Shown: positions 19,036-42,500 of the stretch, piece by piece | How positions within the stretch are numbered: the stretch's first letter is position 1 | How the letters are laid out: each line of letters opens with the position of its first letter | The notes under the pieces: generated by a model | Seen by the model: only the letters and a program-made list of their open reading frames with translations | The model's database searches: none | Told to the model about the DNA's origin: nothing | Made by a program: the position numbers and the translations under genes | Assembly: GCF_016097555.1 (NCBI RefSeq) | Contig: NC_054702.1 | Location: forward strand, 68,386,195-68,450,194 | Direction: 5' to 3' | Origin: Gigantopelta aegis | Taxonomy: Eukaryota > Mollusca > Gastropoda > Neomphalida > Peltospiridae | DNA length: 64,000 nucleotides

Positions 19036-19121
19036 CTATTCAAAATTTAAATTTAGTTTTTAAAAAAGGATTTAAATTAATATCTGGAAATATGTTACAA
19101 TGGTTGTAAACCCAAGATTTG

Positions 19122-19385
19122 CCCTTCAACGCCTCAACAACTAACCGTTATCTCACTGTTCAGATTGCTGCAATCTGTGTCCAGTACAGCATGCTTGGAT
19201 CTTACTGGCCCTTTAACGCCTCAACAACTAACCGTCATTTCACTGTTCAGATTGCTGCAATATGTGTCCAGTACAGCATTCTTGGATCTTACTGGCCCTT
19301 TAACGCCTCAACAACTAACCGTTATCTCACTGTTCAGATTGCTGCAATATGTGTCCAGTACAGCATGCTTGGATCTTACTTGGAT
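19122..19385. repeat. 87-bp tandem repeat, three copies
   Basis: AACGCCTCAACAACTAACCG starts at 19128, 19215 and 19302, an exact 87-bp period. Units differ by few bases. The period is a multiple of three, which creates a 97-residue repetitive + strand frame that is not supported as a gene. Confidence 0.93.
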
Positions 19386-23350: not shown

Positions 23351-26190
23351 TTAAAATTGTGCTTTCTTCTGGAAAACTTTGTCTGGACGTAAACAGTAAG
23401 CGACTCGAGTAATTAAATCTTGTTCTAGAAACCAAACAAAGTAGTTTTTGAATAAGTCAAGCTCCCCATGAACTGATATCAATTCCTTATCGCATTCATC
23501 CAGTTTGGACGTGACCATGGCTTTTTCACTGTGATTAGTATCGTCTACTCTGAGAAAGATAACCATGTAACCATCGTTTCTTCCAGTAAATAGTTTCTGT
23601 GTGTGTTCGGGAAGTCGCACATTACATTCTACTACTGAAAGCCCTTCTTTGACCAGATACTGACTGAAAAAGCTTTTATCTGTACTGGAAAAGCTAGGTT
23701 TGTCAAGTATTCCATGAAGAATGTTTGGTAAAGCTCGTGGAATAGGAAGTCCGTCGGGCCAGATTTAACAGAATCCTCCAGATCATTTGATAACTTATAG
23801 TGAAACAAAGACACACGGTGTGATATTTTTTCTGGTATTTTGGTGCTGTTTCCAACTTCATCTTCTTCAGGTTTAGTTTCAACATCTTGATCTTCCGTAT
23901 GCAAAACCATTTTGTTGTCGGAATACTCAGTTACGGCAACAGATTCCTCTGTCAGAAAAGTACACGGATCTGGTACTGGCGTGTCACTGTACTCAGTTTC
24001 GGCAACAGATTCCTCTGTCAGAAAAGTACACGGATCTGGTACTGGCGTGTCAGTGTACTCGGTTTCGGCAACAGATTCCTCTGTCAGAAAAGTACACGGA
24101 TCTGGTACTGGCGTGTCACTGTACTCAGTTTCGGCAACAGGTTCCTCTGTCAGACAAGTACACGGATCTGGTACTGGCGTGTCACTGTACTCATTTTCGG
24201 CAACAGATTCCTCTGTCAGACAAGTACACGGATCTGGTACTGGCGTGTCGCTGTACTCAGTTTCGGCAACAGATTCCTCTGTCAGAAAAGTACCCGGATC
24301 TGGTACTGGCGTGTCACTGTACTCAGTTTCGGCAACAGATTCCTCTGTCAGAAAAGTACACGGATCTGGTACTGGCGTGTCACTGTACTCAGTTTCGGCA
24401 ACTGACTCCTCTGTCAGACAAGTACACGGATCTGGTATGGGAGTTCCATTGTATTCCGCGTTGTATTCTGTTGTCTGTACTTCCATGTTAGTGTCACAAT
24501 TTTCCGGCACAGCTTGTGATGATGGACGTTTACCAGTCGGCATCATATTGCAGTATATGTCAATAACGTTTTTGTATGTATCAACGTCCTTAAATCCCGG
24601 GTAACTTTGGATATTCCTGGCCCACCACAAAGACAAAGGACTAGTGTCAGAAACATCTCTACAATGGACTTCATTGGCAAACAGACATCTTTCCAGTGCA
24701 TCGAGACCAAGGTGTTGTCTCAGCACAGAAACAGATGAACTTAAATTAACCAAGGTTTCTCTTCTAATATTTGGAAGAGCGACCACCTTCCTTACTGGAA
24801 TATTGAGATGCAAGTCTTTCATCACGTGTCGAAACATTCGCTCATCTCTATCGAGCTGTTTCAGTGCGCGTTCAATGAAATCTTTTATTTTTCTGTTGTG
24901 TTGGTCCTTGCGCTTCTTCACTGCCTTCCAGTACCCTTCGCTGTCTGCCACTTGCATGGACTCACCTATCGCCTTCACCTGAATAAACGTTACACCATGA
25001 TTGAGATGCAAGATCAGAATGTCGTGTTCACCATTGTCTCTTCGTGAAAGATACCTTTTCGCAGAAATGCGGTCAGCGTGGCCAATCATGTCCGCTGTTT
25101 TCAAATGTTTGAGATAGTTTTCAAACTCGAACCCTGAAATCAAACACATGGGTTCCACGTCTCCCGCTCCAAAGTGTATCCTCATTCTTTCGATGGCATC
25201 CACAACACTGCGTTCTGCACTTTCTCCTCTTCTTATCCCGGGGTTGCTTTCGTGTCGTATGAAATATTCCTTTTCTTGCAATCTTTCTGCGTTCTCTGAG
25301 GAACATCTGATGTTGTATGCCTTTTTGTCGCAATTCTGGAAGTAATCTTCTATGAAAGGTTTCGTTTGGCCGCTTATAGCGCGTATGCCTGTATCTGGCA
25401 AGTCAATATCGTTTGGTTTTCTGTTGTAATGGGTTAATGGCGATGAAAAACCTGTTAGTTCTTGATTGAATATTTGACGTCCTTTTGATATGTGTGAAAT
25501 ACAGGTTTCTCTGTTTGCAGTGGTTGATTGTTGTGGACACCCATTATCCATTTGTTCATGGCTTTTTGCGTTTTTGCTTTTATTGAGTATTGGTGTTTTA
25601 TATCTATTGACTATCGGTTTGTCCATGTATTTAACACGTACTCCTGATCTCTGCGAAACTGGCATGTTTCTGTTTTCATTTGGTGGCTTTCTTTGGTACC
25701 TCCTTTCCAATTCTAGGTTGTACTGGTAACGTAATCCTGATATATATGAACTTGGACATTCGGTGTTTTCTCTGATTAGTGATCTTGGAGGATTAAAATG
25801 TGTTAGACTATGGTTGTATACATGATGCGGTTCTGATCTGCCTGAAACGAGGGCTTCCCAGTTTTCACTGGGTGCTATTGGCCGATATCTAACGTTTACC
25901 CGCTCGTGACTACATGTATATTCGTGACGTTGTCCTGCTATGCGTGAAATTGGAGTTTCTCTGTTTTCATAGAAGGCTGATACTCGACGGCCGATAATGT
26001 GTTTTGGTGCCTGTCTGTAAGCGTAGACTTTGTGTGAAATAGGGGTGTCTCTGCTTTCCTTGTTTAGTGATACTGGACGGATATGTATTGGTATCTGATG
26101 GTAAATGCAACCCAGTTTTGCTTGGCGCTCCTGCAAATGATGGTTGTACCAACTGGAATCTCCATTGTTTAACTCTTCACGATAGAACAT
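23351..26190 (-). CDS. Protein with NERD-like PD-(D/E)XK nuclease domain and 22-residue repeats
   Basis: An 852-codon frame (26190-23632) preceded at about 26216 by a T-rich acceptor TTTCTTCAG, so an upstream non-coding exon is likely. Domains: residues ~42-260, degenerate ~33-residue repeats beginning ENRETPIS-like. Residues ~321-475, NERD-like fold: GESAERSVVDAIERM, GEHDILIL (Asp390), then GVTFIQVKAIG with Gln404 and Lys406 in the (D/E)XK position, and IPVRKVVALPNI. Residues 579-754, eight 22-residue repeats with core TPVPDPCTFLTEESVA. In this fold Asp, Glu/Gln and Lys bind metal for DNA cleavage; activity is inferred. After about residue 809 another frame reads better (PDGLPIPRALPN…, KEGLSVVECNVRLPEH) and continues to a TAA at 23351 (RPDKVFQKKAQF). 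This implies a one-base slip near 23755, an assembly error or early decay. No P-loop NTPase is present, although many NERD-type proteins pair with one. Confidence 0.6.
23929..24456 (-). repeat. 66-bp coding minisatellite, eight units
   Basis: Eight tandem 66-bp units (22 codons) in frame. Internal units differ at only one to four bases; the first unit (at 24456) is the most diverged (NGTPIP instead of SDTPVP). High nucleotide identity suggests recent expansion or homogenisation. The antisense frames across it are shadows. Confidence 0.95.
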
Positions 26191-26330
26191 TATGCTTTGG
26201 TTAATATGAACATCTGAAGAAAAAAAAGTTTATATAATTATTAGTTTATATAATCAGTAATATCTTCTCGTTTAGAAAACAATTTCTGTAGTAAATTATA
26301 AATTTAAATTAGTATTACCATTCAAGACCA

Positions 26331-33546: not shown

Positions 33547-36500
33547 TCAGGCAAATTTTTTAAGAATCTCCACCACTTTATCTTCATATCCCCACCGAGT
33601 CATTATCTGAAAGAAAATAATTATAGAATAGTGTTTAAGTATTTTAAAACTGTACCAAAGGAGCCTATTAATTGTACTTATTACAAAACTTAAGGTAGTG
33701 CAACATGAAAAAATTGTTTATCAGGGCTCGCGCTGTCGGTAGCTAAATTAGCCATTGGCTAATTTTTACAAAAAATGGCTAATAAAATTTGCAAGTGGCT
33801 AATTTTGAACAAACTGTTACATAATCTATCCGACACCTCGAACATAATAATAATACCAAATATTCAATTAGCGTAATAGCGATCTCACGACCAGTAACGA
33901 GAAACGGTATCATCCAGAATACAGCGTAGGCCTAAAGAAGTTTGCTTATTTTAATAATCAGGGTTATTAATTTTAATGGCATGCATTCAACATGTATGAA
34001 ATCAAAGTCTGTAACTTGTTATTTTAACTTTGTAAAGTCTTTGAACCAAAGTAATAAAAACAGACCGACAATGCGTGTCAATTTGAATACACATGTCAGT
34101 TCAGGGCCGAAAGACATGTAGGCTATCCAAAGGGCTGAGTTTAGCCAGACCGAGCGAAAACAAAACGTTCGCTAGACTGGTTTGTGCACTTTACGTTAAA
34201 CCAAATGGACACGACGAACACCAATCAAATTGTTCGCGAACGTTAGGAAGAATGTTCGTTGGCTGAACTGAGAACAGCTCTCAGCACGAATATATGTCAC
34301 GCTTCAGTCAGCTGACACCCACGTGTCAAGAGACATCGTTGCGGACATTAAACAATACGAAGTAATTACGGAGTTAATCTTGATGTAAATTTGTAGAAAA
34401 ACAGTAGTTGTTCGCATCAATGAATACATAACTGCAGTTTCAGTTATTTCTTTGTCTTTGTTAATTTCGTACCCATGGTCAAGAGCACGCATGAATATCG
34501 CGATCGCGGGAAATGAACATGTGGTATTTATACAAATTGCAGTTGCACGTAAACTGAATAAAATTAGTTTACAATAATCATATTTGTTAGATATAGATTT
34601 GTAAGACTGTGAGGTGAAATTTAATAAGTTAGCTGGATTTTAAAAAGACCGTAAATTTTAATTTTATTAAGGTTTACAAAAATATATATATATATAATTT
34701 ATAAATGGAATATACTGTAAAGTCGGCATTCTTAGCCTAGGTATTTTACAAGCAGAAATCACAAGCATTTAACACGACACTGAAATCAACAGCAACAACA
34801 TTCCACAAATTATGAAATTGTTGGGGGTGGGGAATTGATGGGTTACTTAAAAAAAAGGTCCAAAAAAAAAAGCAATTCAAAACCGTAGCTATTTCAAGAA
34901 ATAATGAGCTCCATATTAAAAAAAAACATAATGCATCATCCCCCACCCCCACCCCCCACGCTGAAAAATCAAAGTAATATATTAACTGCCCCTACCCCCA
35001 TTGCTGTCTTTGATTTTGATAAGGTAATACGGTTTTGTTATTCAGATTTTTTCCAATTTGTACATAATTAGCTGAAAAAGATGCATTTTCAGATTCATAT
35101 ATAAATACTCTATACAGTACTAGGTAAAACAATTTTGGCTAAAGCATTTTCAATATGGCTAATAAAAATTCCATTTGGCTAATATTTTGGCTACAGGTAT
35201 TTTTTATCCAGGGTGAGCCCTGGTTGATGTCACAGTGATGATAAATCAACACATGAATCTCAATGATGACAATTTGAACAAACATGTCAAATATCTTAGT
35301 GGGTTGACAAGAAACTAAGTAATATTCACAATGCAAATGTGTCTGTGCTTAATATATGGTCACAATGCAAATGGGTCTGTGCTTAATGTGTGGCCACAAT
35401 GATTTAGAATATTTGTTTTTATATTATTGGAAAGTGGCTAATGAAAAAAAATATATATACAAAAATCAAAAACTAAATTTTGTAGCAACTTTGTATGAAA
35501 TTTTGCATCTGACTAATTTAGCAATGGGCAGGGTGAGCTCTATTTAAATGCTTTTAGAGATAAGATTTAAGGCTCAAAGTTAGAGTTCGGACTAACATCT
35601 GCAGTAGTGTCATGACAGTGGGCACACACCTCCGCTACCTGTACTTGGGCTGTCTGTCCAGGACAGTGGGTTAGTGATTAATGAGAGGCAAGTCAGTGTA
35701 GTGGTCTTACACCTACCCACTGAGTCGTTAAACCTGCTCTGAGTGGGAGCCGGTACCGGAAGGCAAACTCAGTACCTACCAGCCCTACATGTAATTCCAA
35801 TGGATTAACCACTACACCACTATAGCTAGTTTATAATTACTACAGTATGCAGATGGTAAATACACACCTTGTCCCAGATATCAGGTGGTCTGCAGGATCT
35901 CTGTGCAGGGGCCGAGCTGGGTCTCACACGACTAGGTGTGGCACCTGAAAATAAATATATTAACTTACTTATTGTGGCACGAAGTAGTTTGGATATTTTT
36001 ACCTTTATTATATTTACAGTATTTAAAAAAAAAAAATATTATTATTATTATTGGTTTAAAGAAATGTATTGTGTAGTGTTTTTTAACACATAAAATTACT
36101 GTAGCTATTTCCTGTGTTAGTGAAATATTTCTAGTTTCCAATTTTCACATTATAAAAAAATATATAAATAACTAGTGAAATGTCTCTAAACTGGACCCTA
36201 TATAAACTGGAATTCCCTCAAAGCAGAACATAACATCTCTAATGGGATACCCCTTAAAACAAGACTTATTACTTAATTCGTCCCATGGGTTTATGGTTTA
36301 GGGGAATTCCACAATACCACTATATTACAATTAGAAATTGATACAAGAAGATGAATACCATGTGTGATACCATTAGACATTATAAACACACTAATACCAT
36401 GTATGATATTATTAGACATTACAAGAACACTAATACCATGTGTGATATTATCAGACATTACAAGAACATGAATACCATGTGTGATATTATTAGACATTAC

Positions 36501-39500
36501 AAGAACATGAATACCATGTGTGATATTATCAGACATTACAAGAACATGAATACCATGTATGATATTATTAGACATTACAAGAACACTAATACCATGTGTG
36601 ATATTATCAGACATTACAAGAACATGAATACCATGTGTGATATTATCAGACATTACAAGAACATGAATACCATGTGTGATATTATCAGACATTACAAGAA
36701 CATGAATACCATGTGTGATATTATTAGACATTGATATAAAAACACAAATACCATGTGTGATATTATTAGACATTGATATAAGAATACTAATACCATGTGT
36801 GATATTATTAGACATTGATATAAGAACACTAATACCATGTGTGATATTATTAGACATTACAAGAACATGAATACCATGTGTGATATTATTAGACATTGAT
36901 ATAAAAACACAAATACCATGTGTGATATTATTAGACATTGATATAAGAATACTAATACCATGTGTGATATTATTAGACATTGATATAAAAACACAAATAC
37001 CATGTGTGATATTATTAGACATTACAAGAACACTAATACCATGTATGATATTATTAGACATTACAAGAACACTAATACCATGTATGATATTATCAGACAT
37101 TACAAGAACATGAATACCATGTGTGATATTATCAGACATTACAAGAACATGAATACCATGTGTGATATTATTAGACATTACAAGAACATGAATACCATGT
37201 CTGATATTATTAGACATTGATATAAAAACACAAATACCATGTGTGATATTATTAGACATTGATATAAGAACACTAATACCATGTGTGATATTATTAGACA
37301 TTACAAGAACATGAATACCATGTGTGATATTATTAGACATTACAAGAACATGAATACCATGTGTGATATTATTAGACATTACAAGAACATGAATACCATG
37401 TGTGATATTATTAGACATTGATATAAAAACACAAATACCATGTGTGATATTATTAGACATTGATATAAGAACACTAATACCATGTGTGATATTATTAGAC
37501 ATTACAAGAACATGAATACCATGTGTGATATTATCTGACATTACAAGAACATGAATACCATGTGTGATATTATTAGACATTACAAGAACATGAATACCAT
37601 GTGTGATATTATTAGACATTGATATAAAAACACAAATACCATGTGTGATATTATTAGACATTGATATAAAAACACAAATACCATGTGTGATATTATTAGA
37701 CATTGATATAAAAACACAAATACCATGTGTGATATTATTAGACATTGATATAAGAATACTAATACCATGTGTGATATTATTAGACATTGATATAAAAACA
37801 CAAATACCATGTGTGATATTATTAGACATTGATATAAAAACACAAATACCATGTGTGATATTATTAGACATTGATATAAAAACACAAATACCATGTGTGA
37901 TATTATTAGACATTGATATAAGAATACTAATACCATGTGTGATATTATTAGACATTGATATAAGAACACTAATACCATGTGTGATATTATTAGACATTGA
38001 TATAAAAACACAAATACCATGTGTGATATTATTAGACATTGATATAAGAATACTAATACCATGTGTGATATTATTAGACATTGATATAAGAACACTAATA
38101 CCATGTGTGATATTATTAGACATTACAAGAACATGAATACCATGTGTGATATTATTAGACATTACAAGAACATGAATACCATGTGTGATATTATTAGACA
38201 TTGATATAAGAATACTAATACCATGTGTGATATTATTAGACATTACAAGAACATGAATACCATGTGTGATATTATCAGACATTACAAGAACATGAATACC
38301 ATGTGTGATATTATTAGACATTGATATAAGAACACTAATACCATGTGTGATATTATCAGACATTACAAGAACATGAATACCATGTGTGATATTATCAGAC
38401 ATTACAAGAACATGAATACCATGTGTGATATTATTAGACATTACAAGAACATGAATACCATGTGTGATATTATTAGACATTGATATAAAAACACAAATAC
38501 CATGTGTGATATTATTAGACATTGATATAAGAACACTAATACCATGTGTGATATTATTAGACATTACAAGAACATGAATACCATGTGTGATATTATCAGA
38601 CATTACAAGAACATGAATACCATGTGTGATATACCATGTGTGATATTATTAGACATTACAAGAACATGAATACCATGTGTGATATTATTAGACATTAATA
38701 TAAAAACACAAATACCATGTGTGATATTATTAGACATTGATATAAAAACACAAATACCATGTGTGATATTATTAGACATTGATATAAGAATACTAATACC
38801 ATGTGTGATATTATTAGACATTGATATAAAAACACAAATACCATGTGTGATATTATTAGACATTGATATAAAAACACAAATACCATGTGTGATATTATTA
38901 GACATTGATATAAAAACACAAATACCATGTGTGATATTATTAGACATTGATATAAGAATACTAATACCATGTGTGATATTATTAGACATTGATATAAGAA
39001 CACTAATACCATGTGTGATATTATTAGACATTGATATAAAAACACAAATACCATGTGTGATATTATTAGACATTGATATAAGAACACTAATACCATGTGT
39101 GATATTATTAGACATTACAAGAACATGAATACCATGTGTGATATTATTAGACATTACAAGAACATGAATACCATGTGTGATATTATTAGACATTGATATA
39201 AGAATACTAATACCATGTGTGATATTATTAGACATTACAAGAACATGAATACCATGTGTGATATTATCAGACATTACAAGAACATGAATACCATGTGTGA
39301 TATTATTAGACATTGATATAAGAACACTAATACCATGTGTGATATTATCAGACATTACAAGAACATGAATACCATGTGTGATATTATCAGACATTACAAG
39401 AACATGAATACCATGTAAGATATTATTAGACATTACAAGAACATGAATACCATGTGTGATATTATTAGACATTGATATAAAAACACAAATACCATGTGTG

Positions 39501-42500
39501 ATATTATTAGACATTGATATAAAAACACAAATACCATGTGTGATATTATTAGACATTACAAGAACACTAATACCATGTGTGATATCATTAGACATTGATA
39601 TAAGAACACTAATACTGTGTGTGATATTATCAGACATTATATGAACACTAATACCGTGTGTGATATTATTAGACATTATATGAACACTAATACCGTGTGT
39701 GATATCATCAGACATTATAAGAACACTAATACCGTGTGTGATATCATCAGACATTACAAGAACACTAATACCGTGTGTGATATCATCAGACATTATAAGA
39801 ATACTAATACCATGTGTGATATCATCAGACATTATAAGAACCCTAATACCATGTATGATATCATCAGACATTATAAGAATACTAATACCGTGTGTGATTG
39901 CCTTCAGCGTGGATTTGACCTCCTCTCTGATGACCCCACTGGTGTACATGGACATGGCCATCAGCATGTTGGATCCTCCATGACGGTCAAACAGCTGCTT
40001 CAACCGGTGGTCACTCGACACCAGCAGTCGCGTTAAAATCAGGGCTGAAACATATCATTGAAACAGGTTACTTGAGAGTTTTTGCTCAATGGGCCCACCA
40101 ATGAGTGCTTTACCACTGGGATACATCCCACCCCTGTGCAAATAAGTGAGCGAATGAGTGGGTGAGTGCGAGCACAAATGACTGATTGAAATTAATGGGT
40201 GATGATTTTCTCTTTCTTTTTTTTAAATCTGAAAAAATGACATTCAGCTTTCAAGAATACTGAACAAAATAAAACAAATGTAAGCATTTAAATGCTCAAA
40301 TATAAACCAATATTTATAAAATTAAAATAATAAACTGATATTATACGATTTTGTCAGAAAGGATTATAGGGGCTATTGGACATGCCAAATTAAACATTTT
40401 GTTTAATGGATCTTCAGGACCTATGTCGAATTCTTTAATTTAATTTTGTGGGTGGTGAATACTGAATAAAGTTACTTTCCACTCACTCTCAATGTAATAA
40501 TTCCTGTGTAAAATGGCACACTGATAAATAGAGACTTGAAGACAGTTGAAACAACAGTGTCAAAGTTAGTAAATGTAAGGGATTTTGTTCAATATAAGAC
40601 AAACGTCCTTTTGACAATGAAATTGTTTTTCTTTCTTTTTTTTCACCTTGAATATGGCAACTATACATACAGTAAACATGAATGCATACCAATTATCTCC
40701 AGCATTTCATCTTCTTCATTGATTCGAATAAAATCAATCAGTTTTGGAATACAGCCAAGTTCAGACAATTGCATGTGGGTTTCAACCTGCAACAGATATT
40801 ATAATAATAATTTGATGTTCAACAGTGAATCAATGTAAAAATAGAATTGATTTAGCTGTGAAATTTAGTATATGATCATATTAAGTTCTTAAATATTTAG
40901 TTATCAGACACAACCTGAAAAAGGAACAATATAATTCAGAAATATTTTAACACTAATACTAAAAAATAATTAATTTAATCTGTAAGTAATATTATAAAGT
41001 TTAAAATATTTTGGAAGGTCCTCCTAAGATTAAAAATTAGCCTATATCTATGAAGATAATTAACCAAAACCAATATGTTAATGACATTTAAAATTTACAT
41101 TGTCGTGGAGAACAAGGTCATGCATCAGGAGAAGAGAACTCTTCCTGACATCTCTAGACTTGCTGAAGAGCCCTTTGATGAGTTGGGGACCACATGCAGC
41201 AACTGTCGACTGTCTGCACTGATGAGCAATAGGCTTACTTAAGTCAATCTTAGGTCGGACATCATTGGGTTTTAAATTTATCTTTGTTGTCTTTTTAGCT
41301 GACCCTACAAAATAAAGATGTTAAGTATATGCAATAAAAGATATGTTGTGAATTAACAAAAATGGCCAATTTTGAATATGAAATTTTTTTAATTGGTAAG
41401 ACATTTTAAATTTAATTATCGGTAAATACATTAAATTGTAAACATGGCAAAATAATTTGAAGATAAAGTTATTATAAAAATAGAAATGAAATACATGTAG
41501 ATTTTTCATTCTATAGATAACAGTTCCAATTACATATCCAGTTAACTGTCCATTATTTGAATACTTATTATCTGCTTTAAAAATGCCATCTAATTATATT
41601 GATCAAGTGACAATAATACACAGTTTGATATAATAGTACATTCTGATTTCAGTGATTAAAATTGTAATCCCAAACATTGATAAACAGTAAAAGTAAAAAT
41701 TTAATTGATCGATACTTCTTATTTCAAACCTAATGAATACCCTGAGTAACTGATTTTAATATGCAGCATCCAATACATGAATCATTTTTCGTTCCAGCCA
41801 GTGCACCACGACTGGTATGTACTACCGTGGCCGTGGTATGTACTACCCTATCTGTGGGATGGTGCACATAAAAAATCCCTTGCTGCTAATCAAAAAGAGT
41901 AGCCCATGAAGTGGCGACGGCGGGTTTCCTCCCTCAATATCTGTGTGGTCCTTAACCATATGTCTGACGCCATATAACCGTAAACAAAATGTGTTGAGTG
42001 TGTCATTAAATAAAATATTTCCTTCCTTCCAATACATGAATGAGTCCTCTCACCCTTCTGTGTGCTTTGTGTGGATCCAGAAGCTGAGGATGGACGCACT
42101 TTGATGGCATCCCTGATCATTCCCGCCACTTCTGAAGGCATTTGGCGGAGCGCGATCACCATCTTTCTCTCCCTCTCACAATGAGCTGAGCCAGGTCTAA
42201 AGAGCAAAACGTTTAAGTTTAAAATAAGTTTAAAATTAGCATGCTGAAGCACCATGCGATTCTCTATCAAATGACCTTGACCTTTATTATACTATGTATG
42301 CAAAAATGATGTTCTTTTATTGATAGTGTTTGAGGGAAGGTTGTTTTCTCAGAAACAGATCTAATATAACGCAAATATAATGTAAATCTAACTGAAAAAA
42401 GTTTTATGCTGTTAATGGTAAACATTTAAAGTAGTTAACATTTATGTCTCTGGGGTTTTCACAGGTGACCAAATGATCAGCTCCATTTAAAATTTTAATG

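Follow-up and report, generated by a model that had tools for sequence, protein, structure and literature searches.

Results

The stretch studied here, called the window throughout, comprises 64,000 nt (G000:C4:68386195-68450194) of the 1.149-Gb genome of the deep-sea vent snail Gigantopelta aegis, for which a size of 1.15 Gb has been published (PMC7895826). A protein search identified the gene in the window as LOC121370988, encoding an uncharacterised protein of 1013 aa, and the element in question is a minisatellite in its intron 15 that multiplies the 5′ splice site (donor) of that intron. When the annotated protein was mapped exactly on the DNA, it was found to be encoded on the minus strand by 17 coding exons, running from 56350 to 33550. 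Exon 15 (39889..40044, 156 nt) ends ..KAITH G, with T-x-G at the joint as in Haliotis and Sinanodonta. It is followed by intron 15 (35945..39888, 3,944 bp), which opens as cacg/GTATTAGT and closes with TTTTCAG, and by exon 16 (35868..35944, 77 nt). The longest other intron between the coding exons measured 2,261 bp, as against the 3,944 bp of intron 15. The exon numbering and the exon 16 acceptor at 35944, both given in an earlier note made from the DNA letters, agreed with the exact mapping. In Pfam, the protein and its Haliotis relative gave weak ARM/HEAT-type matches, all below the curated cut-offs.

Tandem Repeats Finder placed the array at 36330-39898 (39-bp period, 87.9 copies, 91% matches, score 4545), and about 90% of intron 15 consists of this 39/42-bp minisatellite. 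On the minus strand the array starts inside exon 15, with ATCACACACG followed directly by GTATT; the last 10 bp of the exon are the end of a unit, in register. It was thus correctly proposed in the earlier note that the units repeat the end of exon 15 and the start of intron 15, since the array opens inside the exon and copies its donor. When the exact unit pattern ATCACACATGGTATTNNTGTTNTT was searched genome-wide, all 64 listed matches fell within the intron 15 array, the search being one for exact matches, with diverged unit copies elsewhere outside its reach. The reversed ATCACACATGGTATTNNTGTTNTT pattern had no match in the genome.

Donor-like copies were counted with the pattern CA[CT][GA]GTAT, which is blind to copies without GT. 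The count was 89, the canonical donor included, and the 88 spacings were 46 of 39 bp, 41 of 42 bp, and one of 14 bp. Since no spacing was doubled, no unit between the first and the last donor lacks GT. The single 14-bp unit (38621..38634, minus strand) breaks the frame and divides the array into a proximal block (38635..39889), whose 32 donors keep the frame of exon 16, and a distal block (36330..38621), whose 57 donors do not match the frame of exons 15 and 16. Hence 32 of the 89 donors can join exon 16 in frame, and the other 57 cannot because of that one unit. The frame that reads ITHG is open, in stop-to-stop frames of 483 aa and 784 aa. These counts bear on much of what had been claimed before. 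The absence of stops from the units, a proximal block of about 30 units, and the ability of its donors to keep exon 16 in frame (32 copies could) were all borne out. A figure of 85–90 in-phase donors holds for the number of copies, but only 32 share the phase of exon 15. The phase G/GT, ascribed to every unit, fits the G that precedes GT in 88 of the 89 donors but is lost distal to the 14-bp unit; the same unit is the one exception to unit lengths that are multiples of three (87 of 88 spacings).

In the annotated protein, the joint reads ..KAITHGATPSRV.., which corresponds to 39889 joined to 35944 with zero array residues. The Haliotis protein reads ..TLTALTQGMSRQ.. (..TALTQGMSRQ..) and that of the bivalve Sinanodonta ..TLHSVTKG..; both have the joint residues in common with the snail protein and neither carries any extra. 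These two were the only other related proteins found. As the relatives carry the joint residues without additional ones, the residues at the exon 15/16 joint look older than the array.

The pairing of each donor with the 5′ end of U1 was calculated; the donors were also scored with a weight matrix (see below). Most array donors gave −4.2 kcal/mol, four gave −4.4 kcal/mol like the canonical donor, and one gave −2.3 kcal/mol, within a range of −1.6 to −10.2 kcal/mol for the 16 donors of LOC121370988. Masking of the array donors by RNA structure was also considered and set aside, the effect being too weak to use: the mean unpaired fraction was 0.41 for the first donor and 0.28 for the other 88, and the next ten copies ranged from 0.06 to 0.65.

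The near equality in U1 pairing, together with an open proximal block in which 32 donors are in frame, speaks for a ladder of isoforms, in which from the first few to all 32 donors would be used appreciably and n × 13/14 residues would be added near the C-terminus; downstream repeat units do serve as donors in IFI6 (PMC4526556). We nevertheless consider such a ladder unlikely. Among the 87 full-length units, the alternative bases comprised 16 nonsynonymous and 3 synonymous changes, where 96 and 28 were possible, in addition to 2 nonsense. A ratio of 16:3 against 96:28 indicates no protein-level constraint on the units, and none was seen on the encoded repeat in these 87. Use of any of the 57 distal donors would shift the frame, the annotated protein has no repeats, and in most of the sister arrays described below the frame is lost and a stop follows immediately. 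The prediction in the earlier note of a protein with a variable number of MSNNITHGI repeats is therefore unsupported, as is, from sequence, a protein ladder from the array.

A coding function of the array was rejected on the unit variation and on the 14-bp frame break. The absence of stops was likewise rejected as evidence for coding: of the 126 point substitutions possible in the consensus unit, 2 create a stop, and when units were shuffled the sense frame was open in 73% of them, so that the unit itself leads one to expect an array without stops. When exon 15 plus the proximal array was used as a protein query, no match with E ≤ 0.01 was obtained among the 7,997 candidates scored, a search that spanned about 264–840 aa and so reached neither the 1,013-aa annotated protein nor any longer full-length isoform.

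The array could also act as a decoy, or sink, that binds U1 without being spliced, and would thereby slow the splicing of intron 15 or block premature polyadenylation. Its 89 GT copies are compatible with such a role; moreover, none of eight polyadenylation hexamers tested occurs in the array, and their six occurrences in the intron all lie downstream of it. The lack of hexamers, however, follows from the unit sequence, and the donor sites are weak. The donor core (6 of 42 positions) takes 1 of the 19 alternative bases, a raw count to be set beside the roughly 2.7 expected by length, and we count this too against a sink, which we regard as very improbable.

The 88 units are of 22 types. Units 1–8, on the exon side, and the most distal unit, 88, each represent a type seen once, and the inner units recur blockwise. 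Over offsets of 1–44 units, the best self-match was at 26 units, with 18 of 62 units identical. Units ending in the CACACG of the exon were all within the first six. The single-occurrence units at the edges and the exon-proximal CACACG units fit a seed at the donor, with edges that lie outside homogenisation.

Three consensus donors 20–50 bp apart matched the genome at 1421+1357 places, as against 386+360 for the reversed pattern; a stricter donor pattern gave 161+197 as against 121+54. These are numbers of matches, not of arrays, and the reversed controls are match counts only. Because the controls also match, chance must account for some of the donor-motif arrays. Thirteen arrays were inspected among the matches listed (about 100 each of 2,778 and 358), which covered parts of contigs C1–C3. 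The 13 were preselected for the donor motif, and C3:4216572-4223433 was counted as one array, without its far part. Eight of them abut or straddle a splice site, two of these eight being paralogs.

These arrays also bear on whether the element is an ordinary satellite that reached its place in the intron at random and resembles a donor by accident. Minisatellites are common, there being three tandem arrays in the window itself (period 20–110 bp, at least 3 copies), reversed motifs also match, and at five of the 13 arrays (L019, L023, L025, L031, L032) no exon was recognised by eye. Yet the intron 15 array begins inside exon 15 and has the last 10 bp of that exon in register, its exact unit pattern is found nowhere else, and eight of the 13 sampled arrays touch a splice site; we give an accidental likeness hardly any probability. 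One array without an exon, L023, looks like an antisense tRNA-derived short interspersed nuclear element by eye. Another, L019 (G000:C1:717000-725500), is a 34-bp × 91 array with a strong donor consensus (CAGGTGAGT) and no recognised exon alongside.

The exons at the eight anchored arrays are of several kinds; the donor counts that follow come from hand-made patterns that skip diverged units. L021 (G000:C1:1233000-1238500) and L022 (G000:C1:1270000-1276500) are paralogous C-type-lectin exons whose donor arrays, of 47-bp units, have 5 copies in L021 and about 27 in L022; with the first donor taken for the joint, the exons match Lectin_C (E=7.2e-20 and 3.3e-10). These lectin genes may be decayed copies, because a stop or a frame break lies further on. 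L021 also has an acceptor array (65-bp × 14), so that arrays stand on both sides of one exon. At L020 (G000:C1:1170500-1178000), an exon lies between a 46-bp × 22 acceptor array and an 85-bp × 28 donor array, and L026 is an exon with a donor array of 41-bp units. In both, the frame is open and splice signals are present, but no family match was obtained, and the L020 exon had no match among solved structures. L027 (G000:C3:1803500-1809500) is an exon of EIF3C, identified by a PDB match over 65/65 residues (E=8.5e-29), with its donor repeated about 40 times in 49/73-bp units. EIF3C is an essential gene, and the presence of a donor array in it suggests that such arrays are tolerated. L028 carries a donor array with units of about 31 bp beside a weak EF-hand_6 match (E=3.2e-4, below the curated cut-off). 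At L024 the array abuts, on the other strand, the acceptor of an EGF_CA exon (E=7.2e-13).

L029-L030 (G000:C3:29886000-29889500 and 29891500-29895000) is a GCN1-like exon whose donor recurs in an array of 57-bp units, with about 60 copies as judged by span without the middle. The exon matches HEAT_EF3_N (E=6.8e-13) and PDB 7nrc, GCN1, over 59/59 residues (E=3.3e-11); designed HEAT-type proteins and a chain labelled ribosomal protein L19 outscored GCN1 in the same search. In this array the exonic ATGCAG is also acceptor-like, so each unit resembles a tiny exon.

Donor spacings divisible by three numbered 0/4 and 3/25 for the lectins, 0/25 for L020, 1/18 for L026, 2/39 for EIF3C, 12/33 for L028, and 13/13 and 7/9 for the first and last parts of the GCN1-like array, compared with 87/88 in the window. 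Read-through from the exon hits a stop within 2–18 residues at 6 of 8 anchored donor loci, the window counted. It stays open for LOC121370988 (428 residues) and for the first part of the GCN1-like array. In view of the stops at those six loci, the open frame of LOC121370988 is not a general feature and looks like luck.

Two further features of the window lie away from the array. Positions 23632-26229 form a single open frame of 865 aa, which matches NERD weakly (E=0.0036, below the cut-off) and contains a coding repeat of 66-bp × 7.8 at 23924-24437. A further tandem repeat, 87-bp × 3 at 19121-19380, has no gene assigned.

Discussion

Tandem repeats that span exon–intron boundaries were named mirages in lancelet Adh3 (PMC3087553). 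The array of LOC121370988 reaches 10 bp into the end of exon 15 (39889-40044), has splice signals in its repeat copies (89 GT copies), and has edge units (1–8, 88) outside homogenisation; both boundary types occur in the genome, with acceptor-side arrays at L021, L020, and L024. We conclude that it is very probably a mirage, very large and in a mollusc, of which the first, exon-attached donor would nearly always be used while the array is tolerated. The end of exon 15 (10 bp) and the first 29–32 bp of intron 15 would have been duplicated in tandem, and the units would then have expanded and been homogenised, presumably through slippage and unequal exchange. The splicing machinery would recognise the donor copy attached to the intact exon, so that nearly all mature transcripts would join 39889 to 35944 and the array would leave with the intron; the next few donors may be used at a low level. 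If the copy on the intact exon is still chosen, junction-spanning duplications may be among the few exon-touching ones that selection ignores. Most likely, then, the array is a side effect of DNA duplication that does no harm, and not a device for making many proteins.

Several points weigh against this conclusion. The canonical exon 15 donor is weak, being the second lowest of the 16 in the gene (−1.73 bits by the weight matrix), and the array copies score from −1.73 to 0.22 bits, with one exception at −5.07. Since the canonical donor is weak and the copies match its strength, competition among donors is plausible; judged from sequence it is possible, as the earlier note had suggested. The array donors are all weak and nearly equal; therefore, a preference for the first donor is not explained by sequence alone. 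Use of the first donor rests on the annotated protein, possibly a prediction, and on the proteins of two relatives, and the history of the array was judged from one snail genome. Mirage copies, it was pointed out for the lancelet, could serve as cryptic splice sites (PMC3087553), and the minisatellite of human IFI6 supplies multiple splice donors, of which two downstream repeat units are used (PMC4526556).

It may be that a process in G. aegis preferentially amplifies exon–intron junction DNA and so builds arrays of tens of donors or acceptors in many genes, EIF3C and the GCN1-like gene included. Where the frame stays open (in LOC121370988 and at the start of the GCN1-like array), part of the additional donors would then be spliced, and individuals would differ in the ladder of protein lengths that they produce; we hold this combined reading to be unlikely. 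Splice-boundary arrays in the snail, some of them with tens of donors and some in housekeeping genes, are natural experiments on the choice of a 5′ splice site among near-identical copies, and they can be found in its genome by a simple pattern. They also allow one to ask whether introns grow and arise through duplications at junctions. Near mirage exons, errors may occur in gene prediction and in repeat masking.

The minisatellite of human IFI6 has a unit of 12 bp in about 26 copies. Like the intron 15 array, this minisatellite (G1P3, or 6-16) provides multiple donors; it differs in that two downstream units are used as donors and three mRNAs result (PMC4526556). Intron gain by AGGT tandem duplication (the Rogers model, named in PMC3087553 as well; potato RdRp, PMC4974935) is similar in that the duplication copies splice signals. 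In LOC121370988, however, an existing intron is enlarged and no new one is seen.

No described gene had been known to the earlier note with a donor array of this size. Donor minisatellites have been published, in IFI6 and as lancelet mirages, but none this large was found described in the portions of the literature available to us; within the literature searched, similarly available in part, mirages were found described in lancelets only and none in molluscs. The lancelet mirages (Adh3, the globins BflGb6 and BflGb9, TnC, PGBD5) are alike in being boundary-spanning repeats, on the donor or acceptor side, with multiplied splice signals; those of the globins occur at either boundary (PMC3087553). 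In BflGb6, as in intron 15, the edge units escape homogenisation, but its haplotypes have 6 and 3 units compared with 89 donor copies here. Units are 10–72 bp in Adh3 and 150–160 bp in the globins (PMC3087553), as against 39/42 bp in LOC121370988. The lancelets belong to another phylum, and RNA was examined there, whereas DNA and protein sequence were examined here. Reverse-transcription PCR and the Adh3 data suggest that regular splicing is not disturbed by mirages (PMC3087553), and for the Adh and TnC mirages it was reported that no aberrant mRNAs are generated (PMC3902484).

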